Assembly: GCF_004683865.2 (NCBI RefSeq)
Contig: NZ_CP038439.1
Span: 603,501-667,500 of the forward strand
Reading direction: 5' to 3'
Length of the DNA stretch: 64,000 nucleotides
DNA from: Paracoccus liaowanqingii
Lineage (GTDB): Bacteria; Pseudomonadota; Alphaproteobacteria; Rhodobacterales; Rhodobacteraceae
Below are positions 9,801 to 62,328 of the stretch, piece after piece. A model generated the notes under the pieces. The model saw only the letters and a program-made list of their open reading frames with translations. It did not search any database and was not told where the DNA came from. Numbering within the stretch: the first letter of the stretch is position 1; the number at the start of each line of letters is the position of its first letter. Position numbers and translations under genes: made by a program.

Positions 9801-9844
9801 CCGGGGCTCTGCCCCGGACCCCGGGATATTTCCGCCAAGATGAA
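9801..9844 (+). repeat. Dispersed 3'-end element, copy A (after alpha/beta hydrolase)
   Basis: One hairpin (CCGGGG, loop ctctg... , CCCCGG at 9801-9816) followed by the core CCCGGGATATTT, three bases and GCCAAGATGAA at 9820-9844. It begins 12 nt after the hydrolase stop, in sense orientation, and its end is 9 nt before the ATG of the HD-domain gene, so it forms the untranslated leader of that gene. Confidence 0.85.
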
Positions 9845-9853
9845 GGGGCCGGG

Positions 9854-10978
9854 ATGCTGGATGCGGCGATGGCGTTTCTGTGCGAGGCCGACCGGCTGAA
9901 GTCGGTCGGGCGCGCGAATGTGCTGATGGACCTGTCGCGGCCCGAGAACAGCGCCGAGCACAGTTGGCACGTGGCGCTGTATGCGCTGGTCTTCGGGGCC
10001 AGCGACCGGGCGATCGCGATGCTGCTGGTCCATGACCTGGTCGAGATCGACACCGGCGACCAGCCCATCCACCTGAACCATGACGCGGGCGCCTTGGCCC
10101 TAGCCGAGGCGCAGGCGGCGCGGCGGATCTTCGGGCTGGGTCCCGAGGGGGCGCGGCTAGAGCATCTCTGGCAGGATTTCGAGGCCAGGGCCGATGCCTG
10201 CGCGCTGATGGCCAAGCGCATGGATCACGTCCAGCCGATCTTCCAGGTGCTGCAGGCCGCGGCGCCGCTGCCCGATCACGTGACCATCGTGCGCGACAAC
10301 CTGCAGCGGGGCCGGGCGGCGCGGATGGCGCAGGAATGGCCCGAGATCGATTCTGCCGCCGCGGCCCTGCTGGAGGGTCGGACCCTGGGCGGGGGTGATC
10401 TGGCCGGGCGTCTGGCCTTTCTGGCCGAGGCGGACCGGCTGAAGTCGGTGCTGCGCGCCTCGACCCTGCTGGACGGCAGCCGGCGCGAGAACAGCGCCGA
10501 GCACAGCTGGCATCTGGCGCTCTATGCGCTGGTGCTGGGCGGGCTGGCGGCGCCGGGCGTGGATGTCGGCCGGGTGATCCGCATGCTGCTGATCCACGAT
10601 CTGGTCGAGATCGACGTGGGCGACGTGCCGCTGCATTCCTCGGGCGGTCAGGCGCATGGCTCGGACGCGGTGAGGGCGGCGGAGGCCGCTGCGGCACGTC
10701 GGCTGTTCGGCCTGCTGCCCGGGGCGCAGGGGGCCACGCTTCTGGCGCTGTGGCAGGAGTTCGAGGCGGTCGAGACGCCGGATGCGATCTTCGCCAAGGC
10801 GCTGGACCGCTGCCAGCCCGCCGTGCAGAACCTGCGCGGCGGCGGGGCGGGCTGGGTCGCCTATGACGTGACCCTGCCGCAGATCGAGGCGCGGGTGGGC
10901 CCTTGGGTCGCCGCCGGCTGTCCGGCGCTGTGGGACTGGCTTCATGGCGGGCTGAAGGCGCATTTCGCCACGGCCTGA
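9854..10978 (+). CDS. Tandem HD-domain phosphohydrolase (two YfbR/HDDC2-like modules)
   Basis: 374 aa made of two homologous halves. Half one (1-about 185) has [26 protein letters not shown] and [13 protein letters not shown]; half two (about 190-374) repeats them as [27 protein letters not shown] and [13 protein letters not shown]. Both keep the H..HD..D metal ligands, so both may be active 5'-nucleotidase-like sites. Single-module proteins of about 190 aa are the norm, so this is an in-frame duplication. The start at 9854 lies just behind repeat copy A and has only a weak AAGGGG site. The natural substrate is unknown; deoxynucleoside monophosphates are typical for YfbR. Confidence 0.8.
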
Positions 10979-11078
10979 CCGTACGGACCGGTTTGGCATA
11001 CAATCGCATACCGTCTTTTCTTCGGGGGCCGTTCCGGCTATGACCGGGACAACCGAACTTAATCCCAAAGGGGCCCTC

Positions 11079-12290
11079 ATGTCGAAGATCAAGGTCGCAA
11101 ACCCCGTCGTCGAACTCGACGGCGACGAGATGACGCGGATCATCTGGGACTTCATCAAGCAGAAGCTGATCCTGCCCTATCTGGACATCGATCTGAAGTA
11201 TTACGATCTGGGCATCGAGGAGCGGGACCGCACCGACGACCAGATCACCGTGGATGCCGCGGAGGCGATCAAGCGTCATGGCGTGGGCGTGAAATGCGCG
11301 ACCATCACCCCCGACGAGCAGCGCGTCGAGGAGTTCGGCCTCAAGAAGATGTGGCGCAGCCCCAACGGCACCATCCGCAACATCCTGGGTGGCGTGATCT
11401 TCCGCGAGCCGATCATCTGCAGGAACGTGCCCCGCCTGGTGCCGGGCTGGACGCAGCCGATCATCGTCGGCCGCCACGCCTTCGGCGACCAGTACAAGGC
11501 CACCGATTTCCGCTTCCCCGGCAAGGGCAAGCTGACGATCCGCTTCGTGGGCGACGACGGCGAGACGATCGAGCACGAGGTCTTCGACGCGCCCTCCTCG
11601 GGTGTGGCGATGGCCATGTACAACCTGGACGATTCGATCCGCGATTTCGCCCGCGCCTCGCTGAACTACGGGCTGTCGCGCGGCTATCCGGTCTATCTGT
11701 CGACCAAGAACACGATCCTCAAGGCCTATGACGGCCGCTTCAAGGACCTCTTCCAGGAGGTCTATGAGGCCGAGTTTGCCGACCAGTTCAAGACGGCCGG
11801 CATCACCTACGAGCATCGCCTGATCGACGACATGGTCGCAAGCGCGATGAAATGGTCAGGCGGCTACGTCTGGGCCTGCAAGAATTATGACGGCGACGTG
11901 CAGTCCGACACCGTGGCGCAGGGCTTCGGCTCCCTGGGCCTGATGACCTCGGTGCTGATGACGCCGGACGGGAAGATCGTGGAATCCGAGGCTGCCCATG
12001 GCACCGTGACCCGCCACTATCGCGAGCATCAGAAGGGCAACGCGACCTCGACGAATTCGATCGCGTCGATCTTTGCCTGGACCGGGGGTCTGAAGCACCG
12101 CGCCAAGCTGGACGACAATGCCGAACTGCTGAAATTTGCGGAAACCCTGGAAAGGGTCACCGTGCAGGCGGTCGAGGATGGCCACATGACCAAGGACTTG
12201 GCGCTGCTGGTCGGGCCGGACCAGAAATGGCTGACCACGATGGGCTATCTGGAAAAGGTCGACCAGTATCTGAACCAGGCGCTGAACTGA
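11079..12290 (+). CDS. icd: NADP-dependent isocitrate dehydrogenase
   Basis: 403 aa, the length of the homodimeric type II enzymes shared by alphaproteobacteria and eukaryotes. Oxidative decarboxylation of isocitrate to 2-oxoglutarate in the TCA cycle. Recognisable are [18 protein letters not shown] near residues 8-25, [12 protein letters not shown] near 95-106 (substrate Ser loop), the metal Asp region [18 protein letters not shown] and [12 protein letters not shown]. Start MSKIKVANP was preferred to an upstream frame start because the extra 13 residues are not family-like and AAAGGGG precedes it. Monocistronic, closed by a clear terminator. Confidence 0.97.
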
Positions 12291-12307
12291 GGCGCATCAC
12301 GATGACG

Positions 12308-12334
12308 AAGGCCGGGCATGCGCCCGGCCTTTTT
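12308..12334 (+). terminator. Intrinsic terminator of icd
   Basis: A perfect 10-bp stem AAGGCCGGGC / GCCCGGCCTT with loop ATGC and a T run, 18 nt after the icd stop. Confidence 0.85.
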
Positions 12335-12366
12335 GCCTTCGGCGGGGATATTTCAGCCAAGATGAA
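12335..12366 (+). repeat. Dispersed 3'-end element, copy B (after icd)
   Basis: Short hairpin GCCttcGGC then core GGGGATATTT, CAG, CCAAGATGAA (12344-12366), in sense with icd and directly after its terminator. Forms a perfect 22-bp inverted repeat with copy B' (12378-12399), 11 bp apart. Confidence 0.85.
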
Positions 12367-12377
12367 ATCCGCCCGTC

Positions 12378-12437
12378 TTCATCTTGGCTGAAATATCCCG
12401 GGGGGAATCGCCGAAAGGCGATGGGGGGCTGGCCCCC
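12378..12437 (-). repeat. Dispersed 3'-end element, copy B' (opposed orientation, before purQ)
   Basis: Read on the minus strand: GGGGG/CCCCC hairpin (12423-12437), second hairpin ATCGCC-tttc-GGCGAT (12407-12422), then the CCCCCCGGGATATTT core and CCAAGATGAA. Unlike most copies it does not follow a minus-strand gene; it lies 58 nt upstream of purQ. On the plus strand the last stem is followed by TTT, so it could also stop plus-strand read-through from icd. Confidence 0.85.
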
Positions 12438-12495
12438 TTTCCTTGCCGGCCAAGCTGCGCTAAGGGCAGGCCATCCCCTCTGCAGGAGTCCCGCG

Positions 12496-13164
12496 ATGAA
12501 AGCCGCCGTCGTCACGTTTCCCGGATCGAATTGCGACCGCGACCTTGCCGTCGCGCTGGAGCGGGCGGGCGCGCAGGTCACGCGCGTCTGGCACAAGGAC
12601 AGCGCGCTGCCCGAGGGGACCGACCTCGTGGGCGTGCCGGGGGGGTTCTCCTTCGGCGACTATCTGCGCTGCGGCGCCATCGCGGCGCAGTCGCCGATTG
12701 CCAGCGCGCTTCGCGATCACGCCGCGCGGGGCGGCTATTTGCTGGGCATCTGCAACGGGTTCCAGGTGCTGACGGAACTGGGCCTGCTGCCCGGCGCGCT
12801 GATGCGCAACTCGGGCCTGACCTTCCTCTGCAAGCCCGCCACGCTGCGGGTCGTGACAGCGGACAGCGCCTTCACCTGTGGCTATGCGGCGGGCCAGCAG
12901 ATCGCGGTGCCCGTGGCCCATCATGACGGCAACTACCAGATCGCCCCCGAGGGGCTGGCGGCGCTGCGCGATCAGGACCGCATCGCCTTCACCTACGGGC
13001 CCGGGATCAACGGCTCGGTCGGCGACATCGCGGGCATCCTGTCCCAGAACCGCCGAGTGCTGGGCATGATGCCCCATCCCGAGCGGGCCGCCGACCCGGC
13101 GACCGGCGGGACGGACGGGCTGGCGATGTTCGAAGGCGTCGTCTCGACCCTCGCGCATGCCTGA
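12496..13164 (+). CDS. purQ: Phosphoribosylformylglycinamidine synthase, glutaminase subunit
   Basis: 222 aa class I glutamine amidotransferase supplying ammonia to PurL in purine synthesis. Catalytic Cys86 sits in LLGICNGFQ and the His194/Glu196 pair in MMPHPER; VPGGFSFGDYLRCGA is the PurQ oxyanion region. AGGAG at 12484-12488 supports the start. Normally purS is immediately upstream; here the upstream sequence is the icd terminator and two repeat copies, so purS and purL must be elsewhere. Confidence 0.95.
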   Translation: MKAAVVTFPGSNCDRDLAVALERAGAQVTRVWHKDSALPEGTDLVGVPGGFSFGDYLRCGAIAAQSPIASALRDHAARGGYLLGICNGFQVLTELGLLPGALMRNSGLTFLCKPATLRVVTADSAFTCGYAAGQQIAVPVAHHDGNYQIAPEGLAALRDQDRIAFTYGPGINGSVGDIAGILSQNRRVLGMMPHPERAADPATGGTDGLAMFEGVVSTLAHA

Positions 13165-13226
13165 CTTGAGCCGGACCGGACTTCGCCCTAGATTGCCTGA
13201 TCGGATCTTGCAGGGCGGACCGGTGC

Positions 13227-15020
13227 GTGGCCACTGAGGATGACATCGAGGACAGTGCCGAACGCCGGCGCCGCAGGGGGCCGCGTCTGGTCAATCCCTG
13301 GTGGCTACGCGCGATCATCGGGCTGATCTTCCTGGCGGCGCTGGGCACCATCTGGACCACCAACGCCTGGCTGACCGACCGCTTCTCCGAGAACACCCGC
13401 GTCCGGTCCGAGTTGCGGCTGGCGCTCTACAGCGGCAACCTGATGTCCGAGCTGCAGCGCAACTCGGTCGTGCCCCTGCTGCTGGCGCGCGATCCTGCGC
13501 TGATCGGAGCGCTGAACGGCAACGACTTCTCGACCACCTCGGCCCGGCTGATGGCCGCGCAGAAGGAGATCGGCGCGGCCTCGATCCGGCTCCTGGATGC
13601 CTCGGGGCGGGTCGTGGGGGCGACCGACCGCTATCAGATCGGCACCAACAGCGTCGCCGCCCCGCAATATGTCGAGGCGCTGCGGTCGCGCGACACGGTC
13701 TTCACCGTGTCGGAACTGGCCTCGGGCGTCCATGAATTCGCCTATTCCCGCGCCGTCGTGTCCGAGGGGCGGACGCTTGGCGTGATCGTCGTGGGCGCCG
13801 ACCTGACGCGGTTGGAACGGTCCTGGTCGGGCATCTCGGACGCGGTGGCGGTCACCGACAGCGAGGGGGTCATCATCCTGTCGACCGAGCCGCGCTGGCG
13901 GGGCCTGACCATGCCCGAGGCGCTGGCGGTACGCGACGCGCCCTCGGCCATCCGGCGGGCCTTCCAGGTGACGGCCGACTGGACCTCCAGCCCCGCCGAC
14001 GCCTATGTGCAGGGCCGCGCCGTGATGCAGTCCGAGGCGCGGGTGCCCTTCCGCGGCTGGCGGATGATCAGCTTCACCGCCTATTCCTCGGTGCGCGAGC
14101 GCGTGAACGCGATCCTGGCGCTGCAGATCATGGGGTTCGCGATCCTGCTGGCGGGCGCCTTCTGGGTGCTGTCGCGCCGCGCGCGGATCCAGTCTCAGGC
14201 CTATATGCGCGAATCGGCGGACCTGCGGGCGCTGAACGCCCGGCTGACGCGCGAGATCGCGGAACGCGAGCGCGTGCAGAAGGAACTGCGGGTGGCCGAA
14301 CAGACCATGCAGCAATCCTCCAAGCTGGCCGCCCTGGGCGAGATGTCGGCGGGGGTCAGCCACGAGCTGAACCAGCCTTTGGCCGCGATGAAGACCTATC
14401 TGGCGGGCGCACGCCTGCTGCTGCAGCGCGGCCGCCCCGAGGAGGCGCTGTCCAGCTTCCAGCGCATCGACGACCTGATCGACCGGATGGGCGCGATCAC
14501 GCGGCAGCTGAAATCCTATGCCCGCAAGGGCGGCGAGGCGGTCGAGCCCGTCGATCTGCGCGCCGCCGTCAGCAGCGCCCTGACCATGATGGAGCCGCAG
14601 CTGCGCACCCGCCCGATCCGCGTGGTGCGCAGTGTCCCGCGCGAGCGGGTGATGGTCATGGCCGACCGCATCCGGCTGGAGCAGGTGCTGATCAACCTGC
14701 TGCGCAACGCCGTCGACGCGGTCAAGGACCGGCGCGAGGGCACGATCGAGATCAGCGTCGAGGCCGGGGCTCACGCCTATGTGTCCGTTCGCGATAACGG
14801 ACCGGGTGTCTCGGACCTGGAAAAGCTGTTTGAACCCTTCTGGACGACCAAGAAGCCCGGCGAGGGCACGGGGCTGGGGCTGGCGATCTCGTCCACGATC
14901 ATGGCGGATTTCGGAGGCCGCCTGACCGCCCACAACGAAACCACGGGCGGCGCCGTCTTCCGGGTGGAACTGCCGTTGCACGTCCCCGGGCAACCCCGCC
15001 AGGCGCTGGCCGCCGAATGA
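13227..15020 (+). CDS. dctB: Membrane sensor histidine kinase, DctB-type
   Basis: 597 aa with a GTG start (no in-frame ATG nearby). A transmembrane segment at about 26-46 and another near 292-312 bracket a periplasmic PAS-like (PDC) sensor of about 245 residues. A coiled coil leads to the phospho-acceptor His379 (SHELNQPLAAM), the N box NLLRNAVDAV, DNGPGV and GTGLGLAIS. This is the layout of DctB, the C4-dicarboxylate sensor. The partner regulator starts 22 nt downstream. No dctP/Q/M or dctA gene is in the window, so the actual ligand is not certain. Confidence 0.85.
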   Translation: MATEDDIEDSAERRRRRGPRLVNPWWLRAIIGLIFLAALGTIWTTNAWLTDRFSENTRVRSELRLALYSGNLMSELQRNSVVPLLLARDPALIGALNGNDFSTTSARLMAAQKEIGAASIRLLDASGRVVGATDRYQIGTNSVAAPQYVEALRSRDTVFTVSELASGVHEFAYSRAVVSEGRTLGVIVVGADLTRLERSWSGISDAVAVTDSEGVIILSTEPRWRGLTMPEALAVRDAPSAIRRAFQVTADWTSSPADAYVQGRAVMQSEARVPFRGWRMISFTAYSSVRERVNAILALQIMGFAILLAGAFWVLSRRARIQSQAYMRESADLRALNARLTREIAERERVQKELRVAEQTMQQSSKLAALGEMSAGVSHELNQPLAAMKTYLAGARLLLQRGRPEEALSSFQRIDDLIDRMGAITRQLKSYARKGGEAVEPVDLRAAVSSALTMMEPQLRTRPIRVVRSVPRERVMVMADRIRLEQVLINLLRNAVDAVKDRREGTIEISVEAGAHAYVSVRDNGPGVSDLEKLFEPFWTTKKPGEGTGLGLAISSTIMADFGGRLTAHNETTGGAVFRVELPLHVPGQPRQALAAE

Positions 15021-15042
15021 TGCGAAACGAGAGGAACAGGGA

Positions 15043-16368
15043 ATGTCCCGCAAGCTGAAGATCGCCATCGTGGATGACGAACCGGACATGCGCGAATCGA
15101 TCAGCCAGTGGCTGGTCCTGTCGGGCTTCGAGACGGAAACCTTCGCCAGCGCCGAGGACGCGCTGAAGGTCATCGGCGCGGACTGGCCCGGCGTTGTGGT
15201 CAGCGACATCCGCATGCCGGGCATGGACGGAATGGCCTTCCTCAAGCGGCTGATGGGGCTGGACAGCAGCCTGCCCGTCATCATGATCACCGGCCATGGC
15301 GACGTGCCCATGGCGGTCGAGGCGATGCGCGTGGGCGCCATGGACTTCATGGAGAAGCCCTTCAACCCCGACCGCATGACCCAGCTGGCCAAGAAGGCCA
15401 CGCAGGCCCGGCGCATGACGCTGGACAACCGCGCGCTGCGCCGCGACCTGTCCGAGGGTCAGCAGGTCATGTCCAAGCTGATCGGCGCCAGCCCCGTGAT
15501 GGACCGGCTGCGCGAGGACATCCTGGATCTGGGCCAGGCCGACGGCCATGTGCTGATCGACGGCGAGACCGGCACCGGCAAGACGCTGGTGGCCCATGCG
15601 CTGCATGCCGTGGGGCCGCGCGCCTCGAAGAAGTTCGTGCCCGTGTCCTGCGCCGCCTACAACGACGAGGCCTTGGCCACGCGCCTCTTCGGCCCTCTGG
15701 AGGAGGGGCTGCCGGCGGTCGAGGAGGCGCGGGCGGGCACGCTGTGCCTCGAGGATATCGAGGCGCTGTCCGAGGCGCTGCAGGCCCGGCTGCTGGCCTT
15801 CATCAGCGAGCAGGGGGCCCCGGCCGAGACGCGGATCATCGCTATCAGCAACGCGCGGGGCGAGGGGCGCCGGGCCGAGGATTCGCTGCGTCCCGACCTG
15901 TTCTATCGCCTCTCCGCGCTCAAGATCACCCTGCCGCCGCTGCGCGCGCGCGGCGAGGACATCCTGGCGCTGTTCACCCGCATGACCGAGCAGTTTTCCG
16001 AGGAATACGGCTGCGAGCCGCCGCAGGTCAGCGCGCAGGAGGCCGCGCAGCTGCTGCAGGCTCCCTGGCCCGGCAATATCCGCCAGCTGATCAACGTGGC
16101 CGAGCGTGCCGTGCTGCAGAACCGGCGCGGGTCGGGGTCGATCGCGTCCCTGCTGATGGCGGATGGCGACGACAACCAGCAGGCCACCACGACCGAGGGC
16201 AAGCCGCTCAAGGAATATGTGGAGAGCTTCGAGAAGATGCTGATCGACAACACCATGCGCCGCCATCGGGGCAGCATCGCCAGCGTCATGGAAGAGCTGT
16301 GCCTGCCGCGCCGGACGCTGAACGAGAAGATGGCGAAATACGGGCTGCAGCGCGGCGACTATCTGTGA
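15043..16368 (+). CDS. dctD: DctD-type response regulator with degenerate AAA+ domain lacking GAFTGA
   Basis: 441 aa: receiver (1-115, phospho-acceptor Asp55 in VVVSDIRMPG), AAA+ domain (143-365) and Fis-type helix-turn-helix (405-433). Walker A is intact (GETGTGKT, 174-181) and so is the arginine region DLFYRL. Where NtrC/DctD proteins have GAFTGA, the loop that touches sigma-54, this one reads LFGPLEEGLP (215-224), and Walker B is altered to TLCLEDIE. Rhodobacter capsulatus NtrC is known to lack GAFTGA and to act with sigma-70, so this regulator probably also works without sigma-54. AGGAACAGGG precedes the ATG. Confidence 0.87.
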   Translation: MSRKLKIAIVDDEPDMRESISQWLVLSGFETETFASAEDALKVIGADWPGVVVSDIRMPGMDGMAFLKRLMGLDSSLPVIMITGHGDVPMAVEAMRVGAMDFMEKPFNPDRMTQLAKKATQARRMTLDNRALRRDLSEGQQVMSKLIGASPVMDRLREDILDLGQADGHVLIDGETGTGKTLVAHALHAVGPRASKKFVPVSCAAYNDEALATRLFGPLEEGLPAVEEARAGTLCLEDIEALSEALQARLLAFISEQGAPAETRIIAISNARGEGRRAEDSLRPDLFYRLSALKITLPPLRARGEDILALFTRMTEQFSEEYGCEPPQVSAQEAAQLLQAPWPGNIRQLINVAERAVLQNRRGSGSIASLLMADGDDNQQATTTEGKPLKEYVESFEKMLIDNTMRRHRGSIASVMEELCLPRRTLNEKMAKYGLQRGDYL

Positions 16369-16460
16369 GGCGCATGTGGGCCGGGGCCGGTGCGGCCTCG
16401 GCCCGGGCAGGATCCGGACCGCGCGCCCTGCGCAAGGCGCACAACGAGAAAAGCCGACCA

Positions 16461-16482
16461 GGGGCGGCAGGCGCGCCGCCCC
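16461..16482 (+). terminator. Terminator-like stem after dctD
   Basis: Perfect 8-bp GC stem GGGGCGGC / GCCGCCCC with a 6-nt loop, 93 nt after the dctD stop. No T tract, so if it ends transcription it would do so weakly or with Rho. Confidence 0.35.
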
Positions 16483-16846
16483 AGGCCTGATTTCGGGTCC
16501 TGCCCAAAACAAAAGAGACCAATCGGGACAAAGGCAAGACAAGCCGCAGGATCCAGTCGGGCATTGTCTTGAAGTGCGGTCCGCAAAACGCGGGTACTGA
16601 GGAACAAGGTACTGATCGGCGCAGATCGGGTCGGAAGCAAAGCCTCACAACCTGATTAACTATTTACCTTGTGCCTGTGACAAATCCAACTGTTCTTTTC
16701 GATAGGTCACGTTTGCAGCACCTTGATATCAGAGAGATTTCCTTCATTTTTCGCTATATGTCGCCTCGCCGACAATTGGGTCGTTGATATGGCGCGGTTG
16801 CTGGCGCGACGGGGCGGGACTTGCGAAGCGGTGCCGTCGGCAGTAG

Positions 16847-16870
16847 GCCTTTTCGGGACCACGGAAAGGC
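16847..16870 (+). promoter_or_regulatory. Hairpin sequestering the metZ ribosome binding site
   Basis: GCCTTTTCG pairs with CGGAAAGGC across a 6-nt loop (9 bp, one G-U). The 3' arm contains the only Shine-Dalgarno-like purine run (GGAAAGG), 8 nt before the metZ ATG at 16878. Such an arrangement suits translational control of methionine synthesis. I could not match the leader to the SAM-II, SAM/SAH or SAM-V consensus that I remember. Confidence 0.5.
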
Positions 16871-16877
16871 AGCCCGC

Positions 16878-18065
16878 ATGAGCGTTTCGTCCGACAAGAC
16901 CCTTCATCCCCGCACCCAGGCCGTGCATCACGGCACCCGCCGCAGCCAGTATGGCGAGATGGCCGAGGCGATCTTCCTGACGCAGGGTTTCGTCTATGAC
17001 AGCGCGGCCCAGGCCGAGGCGCGGTTCCAGGGCACCGGCCCCGACGAATTCATCTATGCCCGCTACGGCAACCCGACCAGCCGCATGTTCGAGGACCGCA
17101 TCGCCGCGCTGGAGGGGACCGAGGACGCCTTCGCCACCGCCAGCGGCATGGCCGCCGTCAACGGCGCGATGTTCGCGATGTGCAAGCCCGGCGATCACGT
17201 CGTGGCGGCCCGGGCGCTGTTCGGATCCTGTCTCTATGTACTGGACCTGCTGGTGCGCTTCGGCGTCAAGGTCAGCTATGTCGACGGCACCGATCTGGAC
17301 CAGTGGGCGGCTGCCATCACGCCGGGCACGCGGGCGGTGTTCTTCGAGAGCATCTCGAACCCCACGCTGGAGGTGATCGACATCCGCGCGGTGGCGGATC
17401 TGGCCCATGCGGCGGGCGCGACCGTGGTGGTGGACAACGTCTTCGCCACGCCGGTCTTCTCGAAGGCGGTCGAGCAGGGCGCCGATGTGGTCGTCTATTC
17501 CGCGACCAAGCATATCGACGGCGGCGGGCGCGCCCTGGCGGGCGTCATCTGCGGCACGAAGCATTTCGTGCGCGAGGTGGCCGAGCCCTATCTGAAGCAT
17601 ACCGGCGGGGCGATCAGCCCGTTCCATGCCTGGATCATGCTGAACGGTCTGACCACAATGGACCTGCGCGTGCGGGCGCAGGCCGAGGCGGCGGCCACGC
17701 TGGCCGCCAGCCTGCAGGGGCATCCGCGCCTGGAGCGGGTGATCTATCCGGGCCTGGCCGACCATGCCCAGTACGATCTGGCGATGGCGCAGATGGGCTC
17801 GGGCGGGACGATGATCGCGATGGAGGTCGCGGGCGGCAAGGAGGCGGCCTTCGCCGTGCTGGACCGGCTGCGGATCATCGCCATCTCGAACAATCTGGGC
17901 GACGCGAAATCCATCGCGGTCCATCCCGCGACCACCACCCATTCGCGCCTGTCGGACGAGGACCGGGCCACCCTGGGCATCACCCGGGGCCTGCTGCGCC
18001 TGTCGGTGGGGCTGGAGGATGTGCGCGATCTGACTGCCGACCTGATGGCCGCGCTGGAGGGCTGA
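16878..18065 (+). CDS. metZ: O-succinylhomoserine sulfhydrylase
   Basis: 395 aa PLP enzyme of the Cys/Met metabolism family. The PLP lysine is K211 in YSATKHIDGGGRALAG; the N-terminal TRAVHHGTRRSQYGEMAEAI (given by its pattern, residues 14-32) and the TQGFVYDSA substrate block fit MetZ rather than cystathionine gamma-synthase. It makes homocysteine directly from sulfide, so it would use the sulfide produced by the cysI/cysH operon at the start of this window. The start MSVSSDKTL was chosen over a longer TTG frame because of the ribosome site and homology. Control is probably at translation through the hairpin just upstream. Confidence 0.88.
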   Translation: MSVSSDKTLHPRTQAVHHGTRRSQYGEMAEAIFLTQGFVYDSAAQAEARFQGTGPDEFIYARYGNPTSRMFEDRIAALEGTEDAFATASGMAAVNGAMFAMCKPGDHVVAARALFGSCLYVLDLLVRFGVKVSYVDGTDLDQWAAAITPGTRAVFFESISNPTLEVIDIRAVADLAHAAGATVVVDNVFATPVFSKAVEQGADVVVYSATKHIDGGGRALAGVICGTKHFVREVAEPYLKHTGGAISPFHAWIMLNGLTTMDLRVRAQAEAAATLAASLQGHPRLERVIYPGLADHAQYDLAMAQMGSGGTMIAMEVAGGKEAAFAVLDRLRIIAISNNLGDAKSIAVHPATTTHSRLSDEDRATLGITRGLLRLSVGLEDVRDLTADLMAALEG

Positions 18066-18150
18066 TCCGGGCCGGGGCCGTGCCCTTCCGCGACGGGCTG
18101 ACAAAGCCCGCGGCAGGCCCTATATGGGCCCTGTTCGTGCCGGAGGCCCC

Positions 18151-19113
<963 letters not shown>

Positions 19114-19125
19114 CGCCCCTTGCGT

Positions 19126-19223
19126 CCCGCGACGGCGGGGGGCCCGCCCCCCGCACCCCCGCCGGGAGGGGCTGCGCGCCCCTCCCGGACCCGCCCGGCG
19201 GGATATTTGCGCACCGTCGCGGG
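19126..19223 (+). repeat. Dispersed 3'-end element, copy C (after folE2)
   Basis: Two strong hairpins (19135-19154 with GGGGGGC/GCCCCCC; 19162-19188 with CCGGGAGGGG/CCCCTCCCGG) then core GGCGGGATATTTGCGC at 19196-19212; the CCAAGATGAA end is missing. The whole element is enclosed by a perfect 10-bp outer stem CCCGCGACGG (19126-19135) / CCGTCGCGGG (19214-19223). It starts 13 nt after the folE2 stop and should act as its terminator. Confidence 0.8.
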
Positions 19224-19286
19224 GGTATGGAACGGAGCGTGAACGGCGGGCTTTCCCTGAGGGCCGGGTGAGGCTATGGTGGGCGC

Positions 19287-21653
19287 ATGGACCTGACCGA
19301 CGACCCTGATCGCCCGACCGCCGTTCCCCTGTCGCAGCGCGCCGTCGCCGCGCGGCCCGCCCCCTATCTGGAGGGGCTGAACTCCGCGCAGCGTGCCGCC
19401 GTCGAGGTGCTGGACGGGCCGGTGCTGATGCTGGCGGGCGCCGGAACCGGCAAGACGCGGGCGCTGACCACGCGGATCGCACATCTGCTGATGCTGGGCC
19501 GGGCGCGGCCGGGGCAGCTGCTGGCGGTGACCTTCACCAACAAGGCCGCGCGCGAGATGAAGACGCGGATCGCGCGTCTGCTGGGGGACACGGTCGAGGG
19601 GATGCCGTGGCTGGGCACCTTCCATTCGATCAGCGTCAAGATCCTGCGCCGCCATGCCGAGATGATCGGGCGGGACGGGCTGCATCTGAAGCCCAGCTTC
19701 ACCATCCTGGACACGGACGACCAGATCCGGCTGCTGAAGCAGCTGATCTCGGCCGAGAACATCGACGAGAAGCGCTGGCCTGCGCGGCAGCTGGCGCATC
19801 TGATCGACGGCTGGAAGAACCGCTGCATCGTCCCCGGGTCCCTGCCGCGCGGCGAGGGCGAGGCTTTCGACGGGCATGGGGGCAAGCTGTACGCGGCCTA
19901 TCAGGACCGGCTGCTGACGCTGAACGCGGTCGATTTCGGCGACCTGCTAATGCACTGCGTCACGTTGTTCCAGGCGCATCCCGACGTGCTGCGTCAATGG
20001 CAGGAGCGGTTCCGCTATATCCTGGTCGACGAGTATCAGGACACGAACGTGGCGCAATACATGTGGCTGCGGCTTCTGGCGCAGGCGCATCGCAACATCT
20101 GCTGCGTGGGCGATGACGACCAGTCGATCTATGGCTGGCGGGGCGCCGAGGTGGGCAACATCCTGCGCTTCGAGAAGGATTTCCCGGGCGCGGAGGTGAT
20201 CCGGCTGGAGCAGAACTATCGCTCGACCCCGCAGATCCTGGGGGCGGCCTCGGGCTTGATCGCGGCCAATCAGGGGCGCCTGGGCAAGACGCTGTGGACG
20301 GATGCCGAGCCCGGAGAGCCGGTGCGCCTGATCGGGCATTGGGACAGCGAGGCCGAGGCGCGCTGGATCGGCGAGGAGATCGAGGCGTTCCAGGGCGGGC
20401 ATCGCGCCGCCTTGGGCCGCGTGGGGCTGAACGACATCGCGATCCTGGTGCGGGCCAGCCACCAGATGCGGGCCTTCGAGGACCGGTTCATGACCATCGG
20501 GCTGCCCTATCGCGTGATCGGGGGCCCCCGCTTCTACGAGCGGCAGGAGATCCGCGATGCGATGGCCTATTTCCGGCTGGTCGTGTCGCCCGACGACGAC
20601 CTGGCCTTCGAGCGGATCGTGAACACCCCCAAGCGGGGCCTGGGCGACAAGGCGCTGCAGACGGTCCAAGCCGTGGCGCGCCAGAACGGCGTCAACCTGC
20701 TGGAAGGCGCGCGGATCGTGGTCGAGGAGAAGCAGCTGGGCGGCAAGGGGCTGGCCAACCTGCGCGATTTCGTGGGGCTGATCGGGCGGTCGCACATGGC
20801 GGTGCGCGACGGCGTGGGCCATGTCGAGCTGGCCGAGCGGGTGCTGGATGAATCGGGCTACACGACCATGTGGCAGAACGACAAGTCACCCGACGCGCCG
20901 GGGCGGCTGGACAACCTCAAGGAGCTGGTCAAGGCGCTGGAGGAGTTCGAGAACCTGCAGGGCTTCCTGGAGCATGTGTCGCTGGTCATGGACCGCGACG
21001 ATGGCGATCAGGCCGAACAGGTCAGCATCATGACCCTGCACGGTGCCAAGGGGCTGGAATTTCCGGTGGTCTTCCTGCCGGGATGGGAGGACGGGCTGTT
21101 CCCCAACCAGCGCGCCATGGACGAGCAGGGCACCAAGGGCCTGGAGGAGGAGCGGCGGCTGGCCTATGTCGGCATCACGCGCGCCGAGCGTCTGGCGACG
21201 ATCACCTTCGCGGGCAACCGGCGGCTCTATGGCCAGTGGCAGAGCGCGCTGCCCTCGCGCTTCATCGACGAGCTGCCCGAGGAGCATGTCGAGGTGCTGA
21301 CGCCTCCGGGGCTTTATGGCGGCGGCTACGGGGCGGCGATGGCCGGGGCGGGCAGCACGCAGATGAGCGAGCGGGTCGCCAAGGCCGATGTCTACAACTC
21401 GCCCGGCTGGAAGCGGATGCAGGCGCGGGCGGCGGACCGGCGTGGGCCGGTGCATCGCACGCCCATCACCATCGACGCGGCCCCCGCCTCGCGCTTTGCG
21501 GTGGGCGATCTGGTCACCCATGCCAAGTTCGGCGAGGGCAAGATCATCGGCATCTCGGAGGAGACCCTGACCGTCCAGTTCGGGGCCGAGTTCAAGAACA
21601 TCAAGGCGGCCTATGTTCAGCCGGCGGGCGGGGGCGACGACGTCCCCTTCTGA
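19287..21653 (+). CDS. uvrD: ATP-dependent DNA helicase, UvrD/PcrA type
   Basis: 788 aa superfamily 1A 3'-5' helicase for nucleotide-excision and mismatch repair. Motifs: LNSAQRAAV (Q motif), AGAGTGKT near 50-57, FTNKAAREM, DEYQDTN near 247, DDDQSIYGWRGA, QNYRST, TLHGAKGLEFPVVFLPG and the late YVGITRAERLA. The C-terminal Tudor-like tail (FAVGDLVTHAKFGEGKIIGI, from about 730) that contacts RNA polymerase in PcrA/UvrD is present. Its last 37 nt overlap antiparallel with the 3' end of ecsC. Confidence 0.93.
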   Translation: MDLTDDPDRPTAVPLSQRAVAARPAPYLEGLNSAQRAAVEVLDGPVLMLAGAGTGKTRALTTRIAHLLMLGRARPGQLLAVTFTNKAAREMKTRIARLLGDTVEGMPWLGTFHSISVKILRRHAEMIGRDGLHLKPSFTILDTDDQIRLLKQLISAENIDEKRWPARQLAHLIDGWKNRCIVPGSLPRGEGEAFDGHGGKLYAAYQDRLLTLNAVDFGDLLMHCVTLFQAHPDVLRQWQERFRYILVDEYQDTNVAQYMWLRLLAQAHRNICCVGDDDQSIYGWRGAEVGNILRFEKDFPGAEVIRLEQNYRSTPQILGAASGLIAANQGRLGKTLWTDAEPGEPVRLIGHWDSEAEARWIGEEIEAFQGGHRAALGRVGLNDIAILVRASHQMRAFEDRFMTIGLPYRVIGGPRFYERQEIRDAMAYFRLVVSPDDDLAFERIVNTPKRGLGDKALQTVQAVARQNGVNLLEGARIVVEEKQLGGKGLANLRDFVGLIGRSHMAVRDGVGHVELAERVLDESGYTTMWQNDKSPDAPGRLDNLKELVKALEEFENLQGFLEHVSLVMDRDDGDQAEQVSIMTLHGAKGLEFPVVFLPGWEDGLFPNQRAMDEQGTKGLEEERRLAYVGITRAERLATITFAGNRRLYGQWQSALPSRFIDELPEEHVEVLTPPGLYGGGYGAAMAGAGSTQMSERVAKADVYNSPGWKRMQARAADRRGPVHRTPITIDAAPASRFAVGDLVTHAKFGEGKIIGISEETLTVQFGAEFKNIKAAYVQPAGGGDDVPF

Positions 21654-22444
21654 GCGACGCGGCGCATCCGGGCGCCAAGGCCCCGGGGCGCGCTGCGGGC
21701 GCGGGTCAGGGCCGCCGCATATTCCGCGTCGATGTCCAGGTCGGGATGGTCCTGCGCCAGCCGCAGCAGGCGGAAATGGATCTGCGCCACGCCCTCGTAG
21801 TAGTCGACGAAGGCATAGTTGATCGCGGCCCCGGTCACCGCCCCGATGACCGGCACGGCCTGCGCGCCCAGCTTGGTCGTCAGCCGGGTCGCGAACTGGG
21901 TGGCGAAGCGCGAGATCAGCGCCGAGACCGTCTGGCCATTGGTCAGCAGGCGGTTGGCGAGGAAGGATTTGGCGGCCGCATTGCCCGCCTCGCCGGGTTC
22001 GCCGAACTGGAACACCGCCAGACATTCCAGCCGCACCATCGGGTCGGTCGTGTCGAAGCCGTGCTGGCGGGCGACCTTCTGGATCGAGTTGAAGATCACG
22101 GTCGTCGAGGCGACCAGGTCGGGCACGATCCCCGCCAGCCCGAACCAGCCCCCCGCCGCCCCGCTGGCCACCGCCGCCGCGCGGTTGGCGATCAGCGGCG
22201 CCTGCCGCACGATGCCGATGCCGTCGCTGCGCCCCGACAGGTCGTAGAGCTGCCTGAAGGCGCTTTCCAGGACCTTCTCCAGCTGGATGGGGGACATGCC
22301 CAGAAGGGTGGTGGCGGCGCCCTCGGTCAGGCGGCCCACGGCCTCGACCCCGCGCATCAGCGCGCCGCGGCTGGCCAGCTGGCGGGCGGCAAGGCGGTCA
22401 AGCTCGACGGTCAGGGCGGCTTTGGGGTCCAGCGGCAATGTCAT
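21617..22444 (-). CDS. EcsC family protein
   Basis: 275 aa. The EcsC domain spans about 60-240 with the Gly/Ala-rich hydrophobic block ASGAAGGWFGLAGIVPDL near 95-112 and the helix VPVIGAVTGAAINYAFVDYY near 196-215. EcsC in Bacillus affects ABC transporter-dependent secretion and competence, but the proteobacterial members have no proven role; the protein may associate with the membrane. It lies 52 nt downstream of the CDF transporter gene on the same strand and could be co-transcribed with it. Confidence 0.85.
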   Translation of the reverse strand: MTLPLDPKAALTVELDRLAARQLASRGALMRGVEAVGRLTEGAATTLLGMSPIQLEKVLESAFRQLYDLSGRSDGIGIVRQAPLIANRAAAVASGAAGGWFGLAGIVPDLVASTTVIFNSIQKVARQHGFDTTDPMVRLECLAVFQFGEPGEAGNAAAKSFLANRLLTNGQTVSALISRFATQFATRLTTKLGAQAVPVIGAVTGAAINYAFVDYYEGVAQIHFRLLRLAQDHPDLDIDAEYAAALTRARSAPRGLGARMRRVAQKGTSSPPPAG

Positions 22445-22496
22445 GGGCGGGTCCTTTCCGATGTGCAGACAGATCTGGGGAGGGCGGGACGCAACG

Positions 22497-23417
22497 TCAA
22501 TCGGCCCATTCGGGATCGGTGGTGAAGGCGATGGTCAGCCAGCGATGGTCGATGTCGCCGCCGATGGCGGTGCCGATCTCGTCGCGGATGGCATCCCATT
22601 CCTCTAGGTGCATAGGCGGCCAGCCGGTGGGGACGATGAAGTACAGCTCGATCTGGCGGCCCCGGCCGACACGGGCGACATAGGCGCGATGGCCCAGAAA
22701 GCCGTAGCGGGCGCAGGTGGCTTCGGCGATGCGGTCGACCTCGGCCTTCATGGCGGGGGGCGTGATCAGGAGGATGTCGGCCAGCGCCTGCCGGATCGTG
22801 GGGACGGGCAGGGGGATGACCACCAGACAGACCAGCGCCAGCACCGCCGGGTCGACATAGGGGGACAGCGGCTCCAGCGGGGTGCCCCGGATCGCCCAAC
22901 CGAAGAGGAAGGCCACCAGCAGCGCCCCCGTCAGTGCCGCCGAGATCGTCCAGCCCTTCACGTCCAGCGCGACGAAGCCCGACTTGATCCTGCGGTTGGC
23001 CCGGTGGTTGTGGATCGCCATGCCGACGGCCACGGCCAGCACCAGCGCGGCGTAGAGGATCGCCCGGCCGAAATCCAGATCCCGCCCCCCGGCCAGCAGG
23101 CTGCCCACCGCCGTCACCAGCGCATAGATCGCCGCCCCCGACAGCAGCACGCCGCTGAGGCCCAGCACCATCGGCTCCAGATGCCAGAAGCCCATGGTGA
23201 AGCGCTGCACCAGCAGCGCCTGGCGTCGCTCCGACAGGCGCGAGGTGATCAGGGTCGAGACCAGCAGCGCCACCGTCGTCATCATCGCGTCGGTCAGCGA
23301 ATAGATCCCGTCGAAGGTGATCGAGGCCGATCCGGACAGGATGCCCATGCCGATGCCCGCCAAGGCCACGGCGAAGGTCATGGCGATGGACAGTCTCAGA
23401 ACGCTCTGTTCGGTCAT
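22497..23417 (-). CDS. Cation diffusion facilitator (CDF) family metal efflux protein
   Basis: 306 aa with six hydrophobic segments in 1-215 and a soluble C-terminal domain. The TM2 metal motif appears as FDGIYSLTDAMM (two Asp four apart) and the TM5 motif as ALDVKGW. Exports a divalent metal (Zn, Fe, Mn, Co) in exchange for protons; the Asp-rich site is closer to iron/manganese-type FieF than to HxxxD zinc exporters, but this is weak evidence. The start MTEQSVLRL follows a GGAGACC site; the upstream extension is Pro/Arg-rich and rejected. Confidence 0.82.
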   Translation of the reverse strand: MTEQSVLRLSIAMTFAVALAGIGMGILSGSASITFDGIYSLTDAMMTTVALLVSTLITSRLSERRQALLVQRFTMGFWHLEPMVLGLSGVLLSGAAIYALVTAVGSLLAGGRDLDFGRAILYAALVLAVAVGMAIHNHRANRRIKSGFVALDVKGWTISAALTGALLVAFLFGWAIRGTPLEPLSPYVDPAVLALVCLVVIPLPVPTIRQALADILLITPPAMKAEVDRIAEATCARYGFLGHRAYVARVGRGRQIELYFIVPTGWPPMHLEEWDAIRDEIGTAIGGDIDHRWLTIAFTTDPEWAD

Positions 23418-23586
23418 GGCGGGTCTCCTTGCGGCGCAACACCCGAGGGGCCGGGCGGGTTTCCTGAGGGCGCGCGCAACGGTCCGCGCCCCTGCCACGG
23501 GGCATCTGGCCCCCGTCCCGACCGCCGTGCTAGACCCTTCGGGCGGGGATGCAAGCGGCGGCGGCCGGGAAGGCGGGGGCAAGAGG

Positions 23587-23865: not shown

Positions 23866-23878
23866 GAGCTGCCTGTTC

Positions 23879-27713: not shown

Positions 27714-27780
27714 GGGGGCAGTCTGCCCCCTCTTGGCCTTCGGCCAATTCACCCCCGAGGATACTTGCGGCCAAGATGAA
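27714..27780 (+). repeat. Dispersed 3'-end element, copy D (after ALDH)
   Basis: Two hairpins, GGGGGCA-gtc-TGCCCCC (27714-27730) and TTGGCC-ttc-GGCCAA (27733-27747), then core ACCCCCGAGGATACTT, GCG, GCCAAGATGAA (27751-27780). Sense with the ALDH gene. Inverted partner of copy D' across a 10-bp centre. Confidence 0.85.
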
Positions 27781-27790: not shown

Positions 27791-27852
27791 TTCATCTTGG
27801 CCCAAATATCCCGGGGGGGGATCGCCGTCAGGCGATGGGGGGCTGGCCCCCC
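27791..27852 (-). repeat. Dispersed 3'-end element, copy D' (after the ABC permease)
   Basis: On the minus strand it begins at the base after the permease stop: GGGGGGC/GCCCCCC stem (27837-27852), ATCGCC-tgac-GGCGAT (27821-27836), then the CCCCCCGGGATATTT core and GCCAAGATGAA (27791-27820). With copy D it fills the convergent junction completely. Confidence 0.88.
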
Positions 27853-37328: not shown

Positions 37329-37416
37329 AAAAGGGGGGCTTTGGGCCCCCCGTCGCGCAAGCGCGACTCCCCCCGCAGGATATTTGTGCCAAGGCGAAAT
37401 GGCTTGAGTTCGCCTT
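37329..37416 (+). repeat. Dispersed 3'-end element, copy E (after purU)
   Basis: Two hairpins, GGGGGGC-tttgg-GCCCCCC (37333-37351) and GTCGCG-caag-CGCGAC (37352-37367), then TCCCCCCGCAGGATATTT, GTG, CCAAGGCGAA (37368-37398; the last block has diverged from AAGATGAA). The diverged end forms its own stem AAGGCGAA/TTCGCCTT (37391-37416), which suggests the change was compensated by a new pairing. Confidence 0.82.
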
Positions 37417-37517: not shown

Positions 37518-37580
37518 TTCATCTTGGTCCAAATATCCCGGGGGGAGGCGCCGCAGGCGGCGGGGGGCAGCGCCCCCTGC
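37518..37580 (-). repeat. Dispersed 3'-end element, copy F' (after the BMP gene)
   Basis: On the minus strand: GGGGGCG/CGCCCCC-type stem (37562-37577), a shorter second stem CGCC-tgc-GGCG (37548-37558), TCCCCCCGGGATATTT, GGA, CCAAGATGAA. Begins 11 nt after the stop of the BMP-type binding protein, in sense with it. Confidence 0.85.
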
Positions 37581-45766: not shown

Positions 45767-45817
45767 TTCATCTTGGCGCAAATATCCCACGGGGGTCCGG
45801 GGGTGTGAAACCCCCGG
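45767..45817 (-). repeat. Dispersed 3'-end element, copy G (reverse orientation, between dnaE and ruvC)
   Basis: On the minus strand: single hairpin CCGGGGG-tttcaca-CCCCCGG (45797-45817), ACCCCCGTGGGATATTT, GCG, CCAAGATGAA (45767-45796). It sits 5 nt after the dnaE stop but is oriented against dnaE; there is no minus-strand gene behind it. The symmetric hairpin could still end dnaE transcription. Confidence 0.82.
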
Positions 45818-45883
45818 TCGCGGCATCCCCCCTAGGCAGATGTTCGCCCTTCGTGCTAACCCTTGGAAAAACATGAGGGCAGC

Positions 45884-51501: not shown

Positions 51502-51504
51502 GCC

Positions 51505-60450: not shown

Positions 60451-60510
60451 GCGCGGGGGACGAGGCCCGGGCTTGCGATTTTCTGTCGTCCGGTGCATGG
60501 GACGGGAACG

Positions 60511-60813
60511 ATGACCCGGATCCAAGACATACCCGACATGGCGGCGCTGCGCGTCGAGATCGACGCGCTGGACGCCCGGCTGATGGCGCTGATGGCGCGG
60601 CGCCACGCGCTGATCGACCGCGCGGCCCAGATCAAGTCCGGCAACGGCATGCCCGCCCGGATCGACGCCCGCGTCGAGGAGGTGGTGGCCAATGTCCGCG
60701 CCCATGCGATGGATCATGCCCTCGACCCCGACCTCTACGACCGGATCTGGCGCCTGCTGATCGAGGCCGCCATCGCCCAGGAAGAGCGTCAGCTGAACAA
60801 GGATCGCCCATGA
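60511..60813 (+). CDS. Chorismate mutase, AroQ type
   Basis: 100 aa all-helical domain: [23 protein letters not shown] with the following AAQIKSG gives the family Arg and Lys residues, and [16 protein letters not shown] with [13 protein letters not shown] the later helices. Converts chorismate to prephenate for Phe/Tyr synthesis; a PchB-like isochorismate pyruvate lyase is a less likely alternative. Start MTRIQDIP preferred. Overlaps folD by ATGA. Confidence 0.85.
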
Positions 60814-61685
60814 CCGCCCAGATCATCGACGGCAAGGCCTTTGCCGCCCGGCTGCGCGCCCGCATCGCCACCCATGTGACCGACCTGGCCGCCCGGGGCA
60901 TCACCCCGGGCCTGGCCGTGGTCCTTCTGGGCGAGCATCCCGCCAGCCAGGTCTATGTCCGCTCCAAGGGCCGCATGACCCTCGAGGTCGGCATGGCCTC
61001 GTTCGAGCATCGCCTGCCCGCCGACACCCCGCAGGACGCGTTGCTGGCGCTGATCGCGGGGCTGAACGCCGACCCGGCGGTGAACGGCATCCTGGTGCAG
61101 CTGCCCCTGCCGGCGGGCCTGGACGAAGCGGCGGTGATCAACGCGATCACGCCCGAGAAGGACGTGGACGGCTTCCACATCCTCAATGCGGGCCGCCTGG
61201 CGACGGGGCAGAAGGCGATGGTGCCCTGCACGCCGCTCGGCTGCCTGATGCTGCTGCGCGACCATCTGGGCAGCCTGGCGGGCCTGAACGCAGTGGTGAT
61301 CGGCCGCAGCAACATCGTCGGCAAGCCGATGGCCCAACTGCTGCTGCGCGACAGCGCCACGGTGACGATCGCCCATTCGCGCACGGCCGACCTGCCGGAT
61401 CTCTGCCACCGCGCCGACATCCTGGTCGCCGCCGTGGGACGACCGAACTTCGTGACCGGCGACTGGATCCGCCCCGGCGCGACGGTGATCGACGTGGGCA
61501 TCAACCGGACCCCGGACGGGCTGGTCGGCGACGTGGACCGCGCCTCGGCGCTTCCGGTCGCGGGCGCCCTGACCCCGGTGCCGGGCGGCGTCGGGCCGAT
61601 GACCATCGCCTGCCTTCTGGCCAACACCCTGACCGCCACCGCCCGTGTGAACGGCCTGCCCGACCCCGAGGGCCTGACCCCCTAG
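60810..61685 (+). CDS. folD: Methylenetetrahydrofolate dehydrogenase/cyclohydrolase
   Basis: 291 aa bifunctional enzyme linking 5,10-methylene-, methenyl- and 10-formyl-[16 protein letters not shown] near 49-61 holds the catalytic Lys, [12 protein letters not shown] and PEKDVDGFH the folate site, and [18 protein letters not shown] the NADP site. Ends [13 protein letters not shown] with a short tail. Coupled to the chorismate mutase gene; converges on the next gene with a 4-nt overlap. Confidence 0.96.
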
Positions 61686-62254
61686 GCCGCCAGCCGGGCT
61701 GCCAGGCGCAGCGCATGCGCGGGCTGGGTCGTGGCCACCGGCAGCACCGGATCATAGGCGGCCCGGATCACCCCTGCCAGCGCCGCCGAGGGCGCGATCT
61801 CGCCCGCGAAGGTCAGCATGGACTGCATCGCCACCCGCTCGGCCAGCCCGCCGGGATGGGCGCCTCCCAGGGCCCCGCCCATGTTCAGAAACATCAGGCA
61901 GGCCCGGATCCCGCCCTCGGGATCGAAGCGGAACAGCCGATAGTGATCCGCCCCCTCGCGCGCCAGCCGCTCGGGCAGGCCCGGCACACCGGTCAGCCGG
62001 TCCAGGTCCGGCACGCCCGCCAGCTCGGCCCAGTCCCGCACGAAGAACAGCATCAGGTTGGCCCCCATCTCGGGATCGGTCTCGGCCATCGGATGGCGCG
62101 CATGGGCATAGCCCGCCCGCAGCGCGCCGCGAAAGATGCCCAGGCTCTCATCCGCCAGCCCGAAGACCACCGGCGCCACCGGCCGCCCCCACCGGGCGCA
62201 AAGAAAGCCGCCGTCAGATTTCGTGAACATCGCCTCGATCGCTGCCGCATCCAT
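61682..62254 (-). CDS. Uncharacterised 190-aa protein
   Basis: I do not recognise a family. 190 aa, soluble, Ala/Gly-rich with [20 protein letters not shown] at 14-33 and [18 protein letters not shown] near 67-84; two cysteines; conserved-looking Trp, Asp and His residues. The coding quality (third-position GC, no repeats) is like its neighbours. It overlaps the folD stop by 4 nt at its own 3' end, and its ATG is just upstream of repeat copy H on the map. Possibly co-transcribed with scoB/scoA, as it lies 101 nt downstream on the same strand. Confidence 0.72.
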
Positions 62255-62266
62255 GCGCCATACCCC

Positions 62267-62328
62267 TCATCTTGGTCCAAATATCCTGGGGGGAGTCGTC
62301 GGAACGACGACGGGGGGCAAGGCCCCCC
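62267..62328 (-). repeat. Dispersed 3'-end element, copy H (after scoB)
   Basis: On the minus strand: GGGGGGC-ctt-GCCCCCC (62312-62328), GTCGTCG-ttc-CGACGAC (62295-62311), TCCCCCCAGGATATTT, GGA, CCAAGATGAG (62267-62294). Starts 27 nt after the scoB stop and ends 12 nt before the ATG of the 190-aa gene, so it is both scoB trailer and that gene's leader. Confidence 0.88.

Follow-up and report, generated by a model that had tools for sequence, protein, structure and literature searches.

Short sequences repeated at gene ends are known from several systems. The DNA uptake sequences (DUS) of Neisseriaceae (PMC3630211) are short motifs with genome dialects that differ in a few bases; they form inverted pairs at gene ends and are located in terminators, number thousands per genome, and are commonly found inside genes as well. 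Repetitive extragenic palindromic (REP) sequences, together with bacterial interspersed mosaic elements (BIMEs) and REP doublets forming hairpins (REPINs), are palindromic repeats outside genes, found next to gene 3' ends in both orientations and in several families per genome. In intrinsic terminators, a GC hairpin at the end of a gene leads into an AT-rich tract, and roadblock termination by DNA-bound factors is represented by yeast Reb1 and mitochondrial mTERF. Here we describe an element of Paracoccus liaowanqingii (genome G000) that shares features with all of these and was first noticed as ten intergenic copies in a stretch of 64,000 nt of the main chromosome C1 (NZ_CP038439.1, positions 603,501 to 667,500; hereafter, the window).

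DUS are the closest analogue for dialects located at terminators, whereas REP sequences are the closest for placement. Unlike DUS, the element is present in about 150 copies (101 of tail family 1 and 46 of tail family 2 by pattern scans), and only 2 of its 106 distinct core sites are called inside a gene; it is bipartite (8 + 3 + 10 bp), usually carries a hairpin head, and has a tail seldom found elsewhere. In contrast to REP sequences and their associated tyrosine transposases (RAYTs), it is accompanied by no Y1 transposase in 12 genomes, is stable by descent, has a conserved tail outside the hairpin, and includes a head type spread across the whole family. It departs from intrinsic terminators in its short interrupted T tract (TATTT), in the conserved dialect DNA downstream of it, in the unbiased orientation between tandem genes, and in the location of some copies past a canonical terminator. 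Its possible parallel with Reb1 and mTERF is a DNA site of defined sequence at gene ends, where polymerase arriving from either direction could be halted. We know of no description of dialect switching for those roadblocks, and of no bacterial counterpart to a terminator hairpin combined with a dialect-specific DNA-bound blocker. We tentatively favour the reading that a putative trans-acting factor recognizes the core GGRTATTT-N3-tail as a bipartite site, a role at transcription-unit boundaries being likely.

Copy Number and Anatomy of the Element

The element follows a single plan, namely a GC hairpin head, the octamer GGRTATTT, approximately three free bases, and a 10-bp tail. In the genome of P. 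liaowanqingii (4.93 Mb, 11 contigs), the strict core GGATATTTNNNCCAAGATGAA has 101 matches with no more than 2 mismatches, and its reversed control has 0; with up to 3 mismatches allowed, the window contains 8 matches versus 0 in 100 dinucleotide shuffles. The octamer, as read from listed copies, is common to three types of heads. Type 1 is formed by a G-run/C-run hairpin, a variable hairpin B, and a second C run; type 2 has the same G-run/C-run hairpin, a short linker, and a second C run; type 3 is GCCTCCGGCGGGG, often with a variable hairpin 5' of it. The hairpin with its C run leads into NNGGATATTT, and some cores are preceded by no hairpin at all. Two cores are situated past a canonical terminator (window position 12335 and own_L335:976, the ortholog in the close relative G510 being laid out alike).

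In the 61 family-1 copies of P. liaowanqingii with a 3-base spacer, the 8 bases of the core do not vary, nor do almost all of those in the tail, an invariance partly built in by the tolerant pattern with which these copies were picked. The spacer of the same copies carries 0.38 and 0.07 bits at its first and second bases, while the third base is G in 51 copies. The tail CCAAGATGAA is rarely free, with only 7 of 100 sites among the matches listed (108 in total) located outside an element. Ten CCAAGATGAA sites with unusual context were inspected as candidate free uptake-like tails, and the candidate was rejected: three proved to be element variants and seven non-elements. The latter seven look coding.

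The arms of hairpin B covary. The 352 distinct heads include 82 with the two-hairpin plan, which yield 61 distinct hairpin-B regions; 57 of these form a stem of at least 4 bp, with 40 distinct arm pairs, as opposed to a mean of 16.4 (maximum 25) in base-shuffled controls and of 24.7 (maximum 32) when the right halves were re-dealt. Thus, the covariation that the original prediction had claimed for the second hairpin is borne out beyond the window. A compensatory change was also observed at an ortholog, where ATCGCC/GGCGAT of the window copy at 27791 corresponds to GTCGCC/GGCGAC in G510. Folding of six stretches gave z-scores between -0.89 and -4.23, the first stretch being a tail-to-tail pair rather than a head. 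A terminator scan of window positions 9500-29400 found 12 terminator-like sites versus 5.3 in shuffles, and the only elements it touched were hit on hairpins taken from their far side, at 27712-27732 (two entries) and 12423-12437. An Rfam scan of the window at the gathering threshold gave 0 matches, our literature searches found no description of the element, and the literature carrying any of five sequence strings included nothing relevant by title among the matches listed.

Comparison of Orthologous Sites in Related Genomes

Orthologous sites were compared between P. liaowanqingii and G510 (312 kb aligned, 92.2% identity) and with an outgroup, G404 (85.7% identity to P. liaowanqingii and 85.3% to G510). 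The elements are inherited vertically. All 24 elements of G510 with alignable flanks are present in P. liaowanqingii; in the opposite direction, 26 of 75 elements had usable flanks, two of which (57381 and 57535) are not orthologous. Of the P. liaowanqingii elements so aligned, a single one (o1407001:85766) is absent from G510, and it looks eroded, with no clean empty site. At the larger distance to G404, both place and orientation are kept by 10 of 12 elements, or by 11 of 14 counted from the other side, the two sets overlapping; the exceptions are one gap with an element in the opposite orientation and one and two gaps, respectively, with none. Three conserved sites have a tail from another family in the two genomes, and hence the families look interchangeable.

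This stability bears on the suggestion that the element is a REP-like mobile palindromic repeat, since domesticated. Such an origin would agree with its extragenic location at gene ends, both orientations, paired copies, and several families per genome, yet we find it highly improbable. A search for Y1_Tnp (PF01797) was negative in all 12 genomes (the control search gave matches in 5 of the 14 named genomes), all alignable elements of the 92%-identical relative G510 are shared with P. liaowanqingii, and the sole copy confined to P. liaowanqingii looks eroded, without a cleanly empty site in G510; the mobile-element half of the original prediction is not supported on these grounds. A tag of the GTAG/CGTC type adjoining the palindrome is described for REP sequences (PMC3733652); no consensus of this kind was seen in 103 heads over the 9 bases preceding the G run, or between positions -25 and +39 of the 61 family-1 copies, although no dedicated search for it was made.

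Within the conserved sites, core and tail are under selection, while the spacer between them is freer. Among 16 orthologous family-1 sites in G510, differences affect 0 of 128 core bases, 2 of 160 tail bases (one of them a gap), and 9 of 48 spacer bases. A further pair, o583501:57535, was dropped as a spurious alignment; with it included, the counts are 2/136 in the core, 3/170 in the tail, and 10/51 in the spacer, with p = 3e-6 (Fisher test).

Family 2, in contrast to the nearly frozen family 1, was respelt in place. Nineteen of the 21 compared loci, out of 46 family-2 sites in P. liaowanqingii, changed from GGATATTT-N3-TGAAGAAGA to GGGTATTT-N3-CAAAGAAGA in G510, i.e., GGA became GGG and TG (GG once) became CA, with flanks 85-98% identical; one locus has a 4-base spacer. 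One of the remaining two loci carries a third kind of tail in G510, and the other is lost (eroded). Six loci taken blind gave 4 switched, 1 with another tail, and 1 lost. The genome-wide pattern GGRTATTTNNNNRAAGAAGA provides an unbiased count, since it allows both spellings: GGG..CA was found at 31 of 31 sites in G510, whereas GGA..TG was found at 45 of 46 sites in P. liaowanqingii. Family 2 of G404 is spelt as in P. liaowanqingii, with two GGG and one CG for TG among the matches listed; as G404 is about equidistant from both genomes, parsimony places the switch in the G510 line.

Joint change of this kind might also arise by concerted evolution through short-patch gene conversion among the copies, with no reader involved. 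Family-2 copies do change together, including their spacers, and close pairs often share a spacer. However, the converted patch would have to measure less than about 20 bp, since the sequence to its left and right can be aligned, heads and spacers differ between copies, and gene conversion alone leaves the freezing of family 1 unexplained; we regard this explanation as scarcely credible.

Tail Dialects

The tail is a genome-specific dialect able to switch in place, a property absent from the original prediction. Open-tail searches in the genomes listed at length revealed between one and four discrete tails per genome, differing from genome to genome. AC[AG]CAT follows the core at 43 of 43 sites in G063 and CCCAAAGA at 51 of 54 in G128, while G095 has two families accounting for 14 and 19 of 34 sites. 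Among the matches listed, G023, which belongs to the same genus, has TCCAGCCCGAGG and others, G019 has four families including the palindrome CCAATTCGAATTGG, and G111, G114, and G132 have two or three. Some genomes of the genus are sparse, with 2 (G302), 3 (G318), and 0 (G324) matches. Close pairs with different tails on either side occur in G111, G095, and G019. With the tail unchanged, genomes likewise have their own base in front of TATTT: GGG at 23/23 sites in G497, GGA at 33/33 in G460 and 12/12 in G457, and a mixture (24:2) in G436.

Two observations concern G063. In RACACATRATG, two positions seven bases apart mostly match (A/A or G/G), which by reading gives two sub-dialects. It also has seven close pairs, of which six are arranged head-to-head and the other tail-to-tail; in four of the seven, the three spacer bases are identical, as if hairpin-templated correction acted on the pairs.

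Dialects are a likeness to DUS, and we considered a DUS-like signal for uptake or exchange, in which an uptake receptor favours the site, and the resulting bias in import homogenizes the copies and switches their dialect. This would fit the dialects specific to each genome, the completeness of the switch from one close relative to another, the inverted pairs at gene ends, and the unbiased orientation, and dialects and a location in terminators are described for the DUS of Neisseria (PMC3630211). The same source counts thousands of copies in Neisseria, as against about 150 here. Moreover, the tail seldom stands free of the element, 18 bases of the site are fixed and its gap of 3 bases is almost strict, and the other replicons hold few copies, 142 of the 146 sites listed lying on C1 (p = 2e-20). 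Uptake therefore appears quite unlikely.

Placement and Orientation Relative to Genes

Genes were called with a codon-based caller trained on 484 kb, and the calls cover 92% of the P. liaowanqingii stretches, which were chosen mostly around elements. The 106 distinct core sites comprise 48 in convergent gaps, 28 in tandem gaps in the sense of the genes, 24 in tandem gaps in antisense, 4 in divergent gaps, and 2 inside called genes. In contiguous stretches, 30 convergent, 32 tandem, and 4 divergent sites and 1 inside site were observed versus 32/129/67 convergent, tandem, and divergent gaps of at least 60 bp (p = 1e-13; one inside site was dropped from this test and from that of the other genomes). 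The corresponding numbers for other genomes, with the caller retrained, are 28 convergent, 22 tandem-sense, 15 tandem-antisense, 1 divergent, and 1 inside; this set, drawn from 120 loci among the matches listed, which include a few unrelated species matched by chance, is weaker, since its gene calls cover 77% of the sequence. Many elements adjoin a stop codon in either orientation. Thus, the tie to gene 3' ends holds well, with enrichment after stop codons and avoidance of divergent gaps.

The orientation rule of the original prediction (8 of 10 copies in gene sense) is correct for the window, where 4 copies are convergent, 4 tandem-sense, and 2 tandem-antisense (12378 and 45767), the copy at 19126 being assigned from the list of called genes, but fails genome-wide, given the 28 sense and 24 antisense copies in tandem gaps. 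Pooled with the other genomes, the ratio is 50:39 (p = 0.29), i.e., unbiased overall, and hence the element is not simply a sense-strand terminator. Of the two families in P. liaowanqingii, family 1 has a sense-to-antisense ratio of 13:17.

One alternative is an intrinsic terminator or an element stabilizing the 3' untranslated region (3'-UTR), in which the hairpins and UAUUU end or protect the upstream mRNA and the tail tunes termination. It is supported by the compensatory changes in the hairpins, the AT tract at a fixed position 3' of them, the strong enrichment after stop codons, and the sense-leaning family 2 (15:7 in tandem gaps). Nevertheless, it is unlikely in our view, considering the tandem ratios of 28:24 here and 22:15 in the other genomes, the hairpin-less cores, and the cores past a TTTTT terminator, and it does not explain the dialects; in the form originally proposed, as a terminator or stability module for the upstream mRNA, it was not upheld. 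The far side is rich in A (4 or more among the 7 bases that precede the G run) in no more than 10 of 103 heads, and so the antisense copies are not simply terminators with a U tract in both directions, a candidate that was rejected. A polar chromosome motif similar to FtsK-orienting polar sequences (KOPS) or Chi was also rejected, as the orientation in 250-kb bins tracks the replichore only loosely by eye. At own_L328 position 1058, a family-2 core is located at or over the end of a called gene, and an in-frame reading GYFREEE is possible (GYFFKEE in G510).

A Putative Trans-Acting Reader

Selection on core and tail around a freer spacer, retained positions, a lack of preferred orientation, and respelling in concert are as expected of a set of sites read in trans; in particular, the joint respelling of nearly all family-2 copies in a close relative suggests that some component of the cell reads the tag. 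The hairpin-less cores and the cores past a canonical terminator indicate that the site is separable from the terminator. From this we infer the existence of a reader, its action at the level of DNA and not of RNA, and a boundary or roadblock function. The reader would be a sequence-specific factor, most likely a DNA-binding protein, with a site usually joined to a GC hairpin; shifts of its specificity, followed by the sites genome-wide, would generate the dialects. At a transcription-unit boundary, the hairpin would end transcripts and the factor bound just downstream would stop read-through from both sides, backing up or replacing termination at gene ends. In a bolder and rather doubtful extension, the element is an address at the ends of Rhodobacteraceae transcription units that belongs to a fast-evolving putative reader, each change of specificity rewriting dozens of loci and amounting to a new boundary system.

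Several points weigh against recognition in trans by a DNA-bound factor. The 16 family-1 pairs were required to have an intact tail and a 3-base spacer in P. liaowanqingii, which lowers the number of differences counted and omits o583501:47762 (TACTT versus TATTT). Fifteen of the 19 switched family-2 loci (15 of 15) come from G510 stretches fetched for the new spelling; these 15 demonstrate the orthology of the sites and not the frequency of switching. The spacer is altered at 17 of 18 switched loci with a 3-base spacer (33 of 54 bases), and family-2 spacers in P. liaowanqingii are mostly TCG, TCA, or GAG, so the spacer bases are not wholly free in this family and replacement as a block is conceivable. 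The order from hairpin to TATTT is fixed, as in an intrinsic terminator, and the sense-leaning of family 2 noted above points the same way. The footprint of a polymerase paused at the T tract would extend over a roadblock lying 3 bp downstream, which fits badly, and multiple families per genome require either several readers or one tolerant reader.

Finally, the tag may be read in RNA, the stem mismatches (11 G-T and 9 A-C) being too few for a test of the strand. In this alternative, the transcript of GGAUAUUU-N3-tail is cut by RNase E within its AU-rich part or bound by an RNA-binding protein, and the hairpins serve as 3' caps. The preference of RNase E of R. sphaeroides for AU-rich sites (PMC6238624) and the position of AUAUUU 3' of stable hairpins are in its favour. 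On the other hand, for 24 of the 52 copies in tandem gaps the transcript would contain the reverse complement, the 11:9 ratio of G-U to A-C in the stems shows no clear excess, and RNase E provides no ground for genome-specific tails, which makes RNA-level reading very unlikely.

Returning to the trans-acting reader, the approximately 150 sites have for the most part stayed where they are at 85% identity and yet were respelt as a set at 92%, and they constitute a natural experiment in the co-evolution of sites and their putative reader. The discovery of a reader would reveal how adjacent transcription units are kept apart in a GC-rich bacterial family, and the dialects would then provide a natural orthogonal set in which the rewriting of a whole set of sites could be studied directly.

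Distribution Across Relatives

The type-3 head GCCTCCGGCGGNGNTATTT was found in 91 of 149 genomes of the family, with up to 77 copies, and outside it in 1 of 237 genomes of the class, as a single copy. The P. liaowanqingii tail CCAAGATGAA, 2 to 6 bases past TATTT, occurs in 32 of 295 family genomes. Among 121 genomes of the genus, 32 have the spelling CAAAGAAGA, with either GGG or GGA, and 18 have GATATTTNNNCCAAGATGAA.

The core and the type-3 head were also found in 10 and 41 stretches of viral contigs, respectively. Several of the element-bearing viral contigs are approximately 14 kb long with one element each (L349, L352, L354, L357, L359, L372, and others), a size that we take to suggest gene transfer agent (GTA) clusters. 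At plasmid loci of Cereibacter sphaeroides, Ruegeria, and Salipiger (L399, L401, L402, and L404), type-3-like heads are followed by tails rich in purines, for example AAGATGAAG and AAGAGGAAG; GATATTC is the reading in the Cereibacter copy.

Copies in the Window

All ten intergenic copies of the original prediction were found where it had placed them. The two-hairpin plan ascribed to them is valid for most, the exceptions being those at 9801 and 45767, with one hairpin and a second C run, and that at 12335, with a hairpin-TTTTT terminator.

Copy 1 (9791..9844, plus strand) lies immediately 3' of the stop codon of the gene at 9127-9789 and consists of a single hairpin CCGGGG/CCCCGG, a C run, and the core GGATATTT-CCG-CCAAGATGAA at 9824-9844. 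In copy 2 (12307..12366, plus strand), the canonical hairpin and TTTTT terminator are followed by a core with the spacer CAG (12346-12366). Copy 3 (12378..12437, minus strand), antisense in a tandem gap and tail-to-tail with copy 2, has a two-hairpin head with hairpin B ATCGCC/GGCGAT and a core, again with CAG, at 12378-12398. Copies 2 and 3 together (12346-12398), sharing CAG, form a perfect 21-bp inverted repeat.

Copy 5 (27714..27780, plus strand) comprises hairpin A, hairpin B TTGGCC/GGCCAA, GGATACTT, a 4-base spacer, and CCAAGATGAA, and copy 6 (27791..27850, minus strand) has hairpin B ATCGCC/GGCGAT. Hairpin B of copy 7 (37333..37398, plus strand) is GTCGCG/CGCGAC, and its core at 37378-37398 ends in the tail CCAAGGCGAA. 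The two-hairpin head of copy 8 (37518..37577, minus strand) precedes the core GGATATTT-GGA-CCAAGATGAA at 37518-37538. Copy 9 (45767..45830, minus strand), antisense in a tandem gap, has a single-hairpin head with a second C run and a core with GCG at 45767-45787. Copy 10 (62266..62328, minus strand) combines hairpin B GTCGTCG/CGACGAC with the core GGATATTT-GGA-CCAAGATGAG at 62266-62286.

Copy 4 (19134..19226, plus strand) has GC hairpins, GGGATATTT, and a third kind of tail, GCGCACCGTCGCGG. This tail, approximately ACCGYYGCAGG, is located 3' of GGGATATTT heads, in the window at 19201-19226; further sites were observed on C1 near 670152 (o583501:86652) and at its ortholog in G510, as well as at the G510 ortholog of o1407001:39171.

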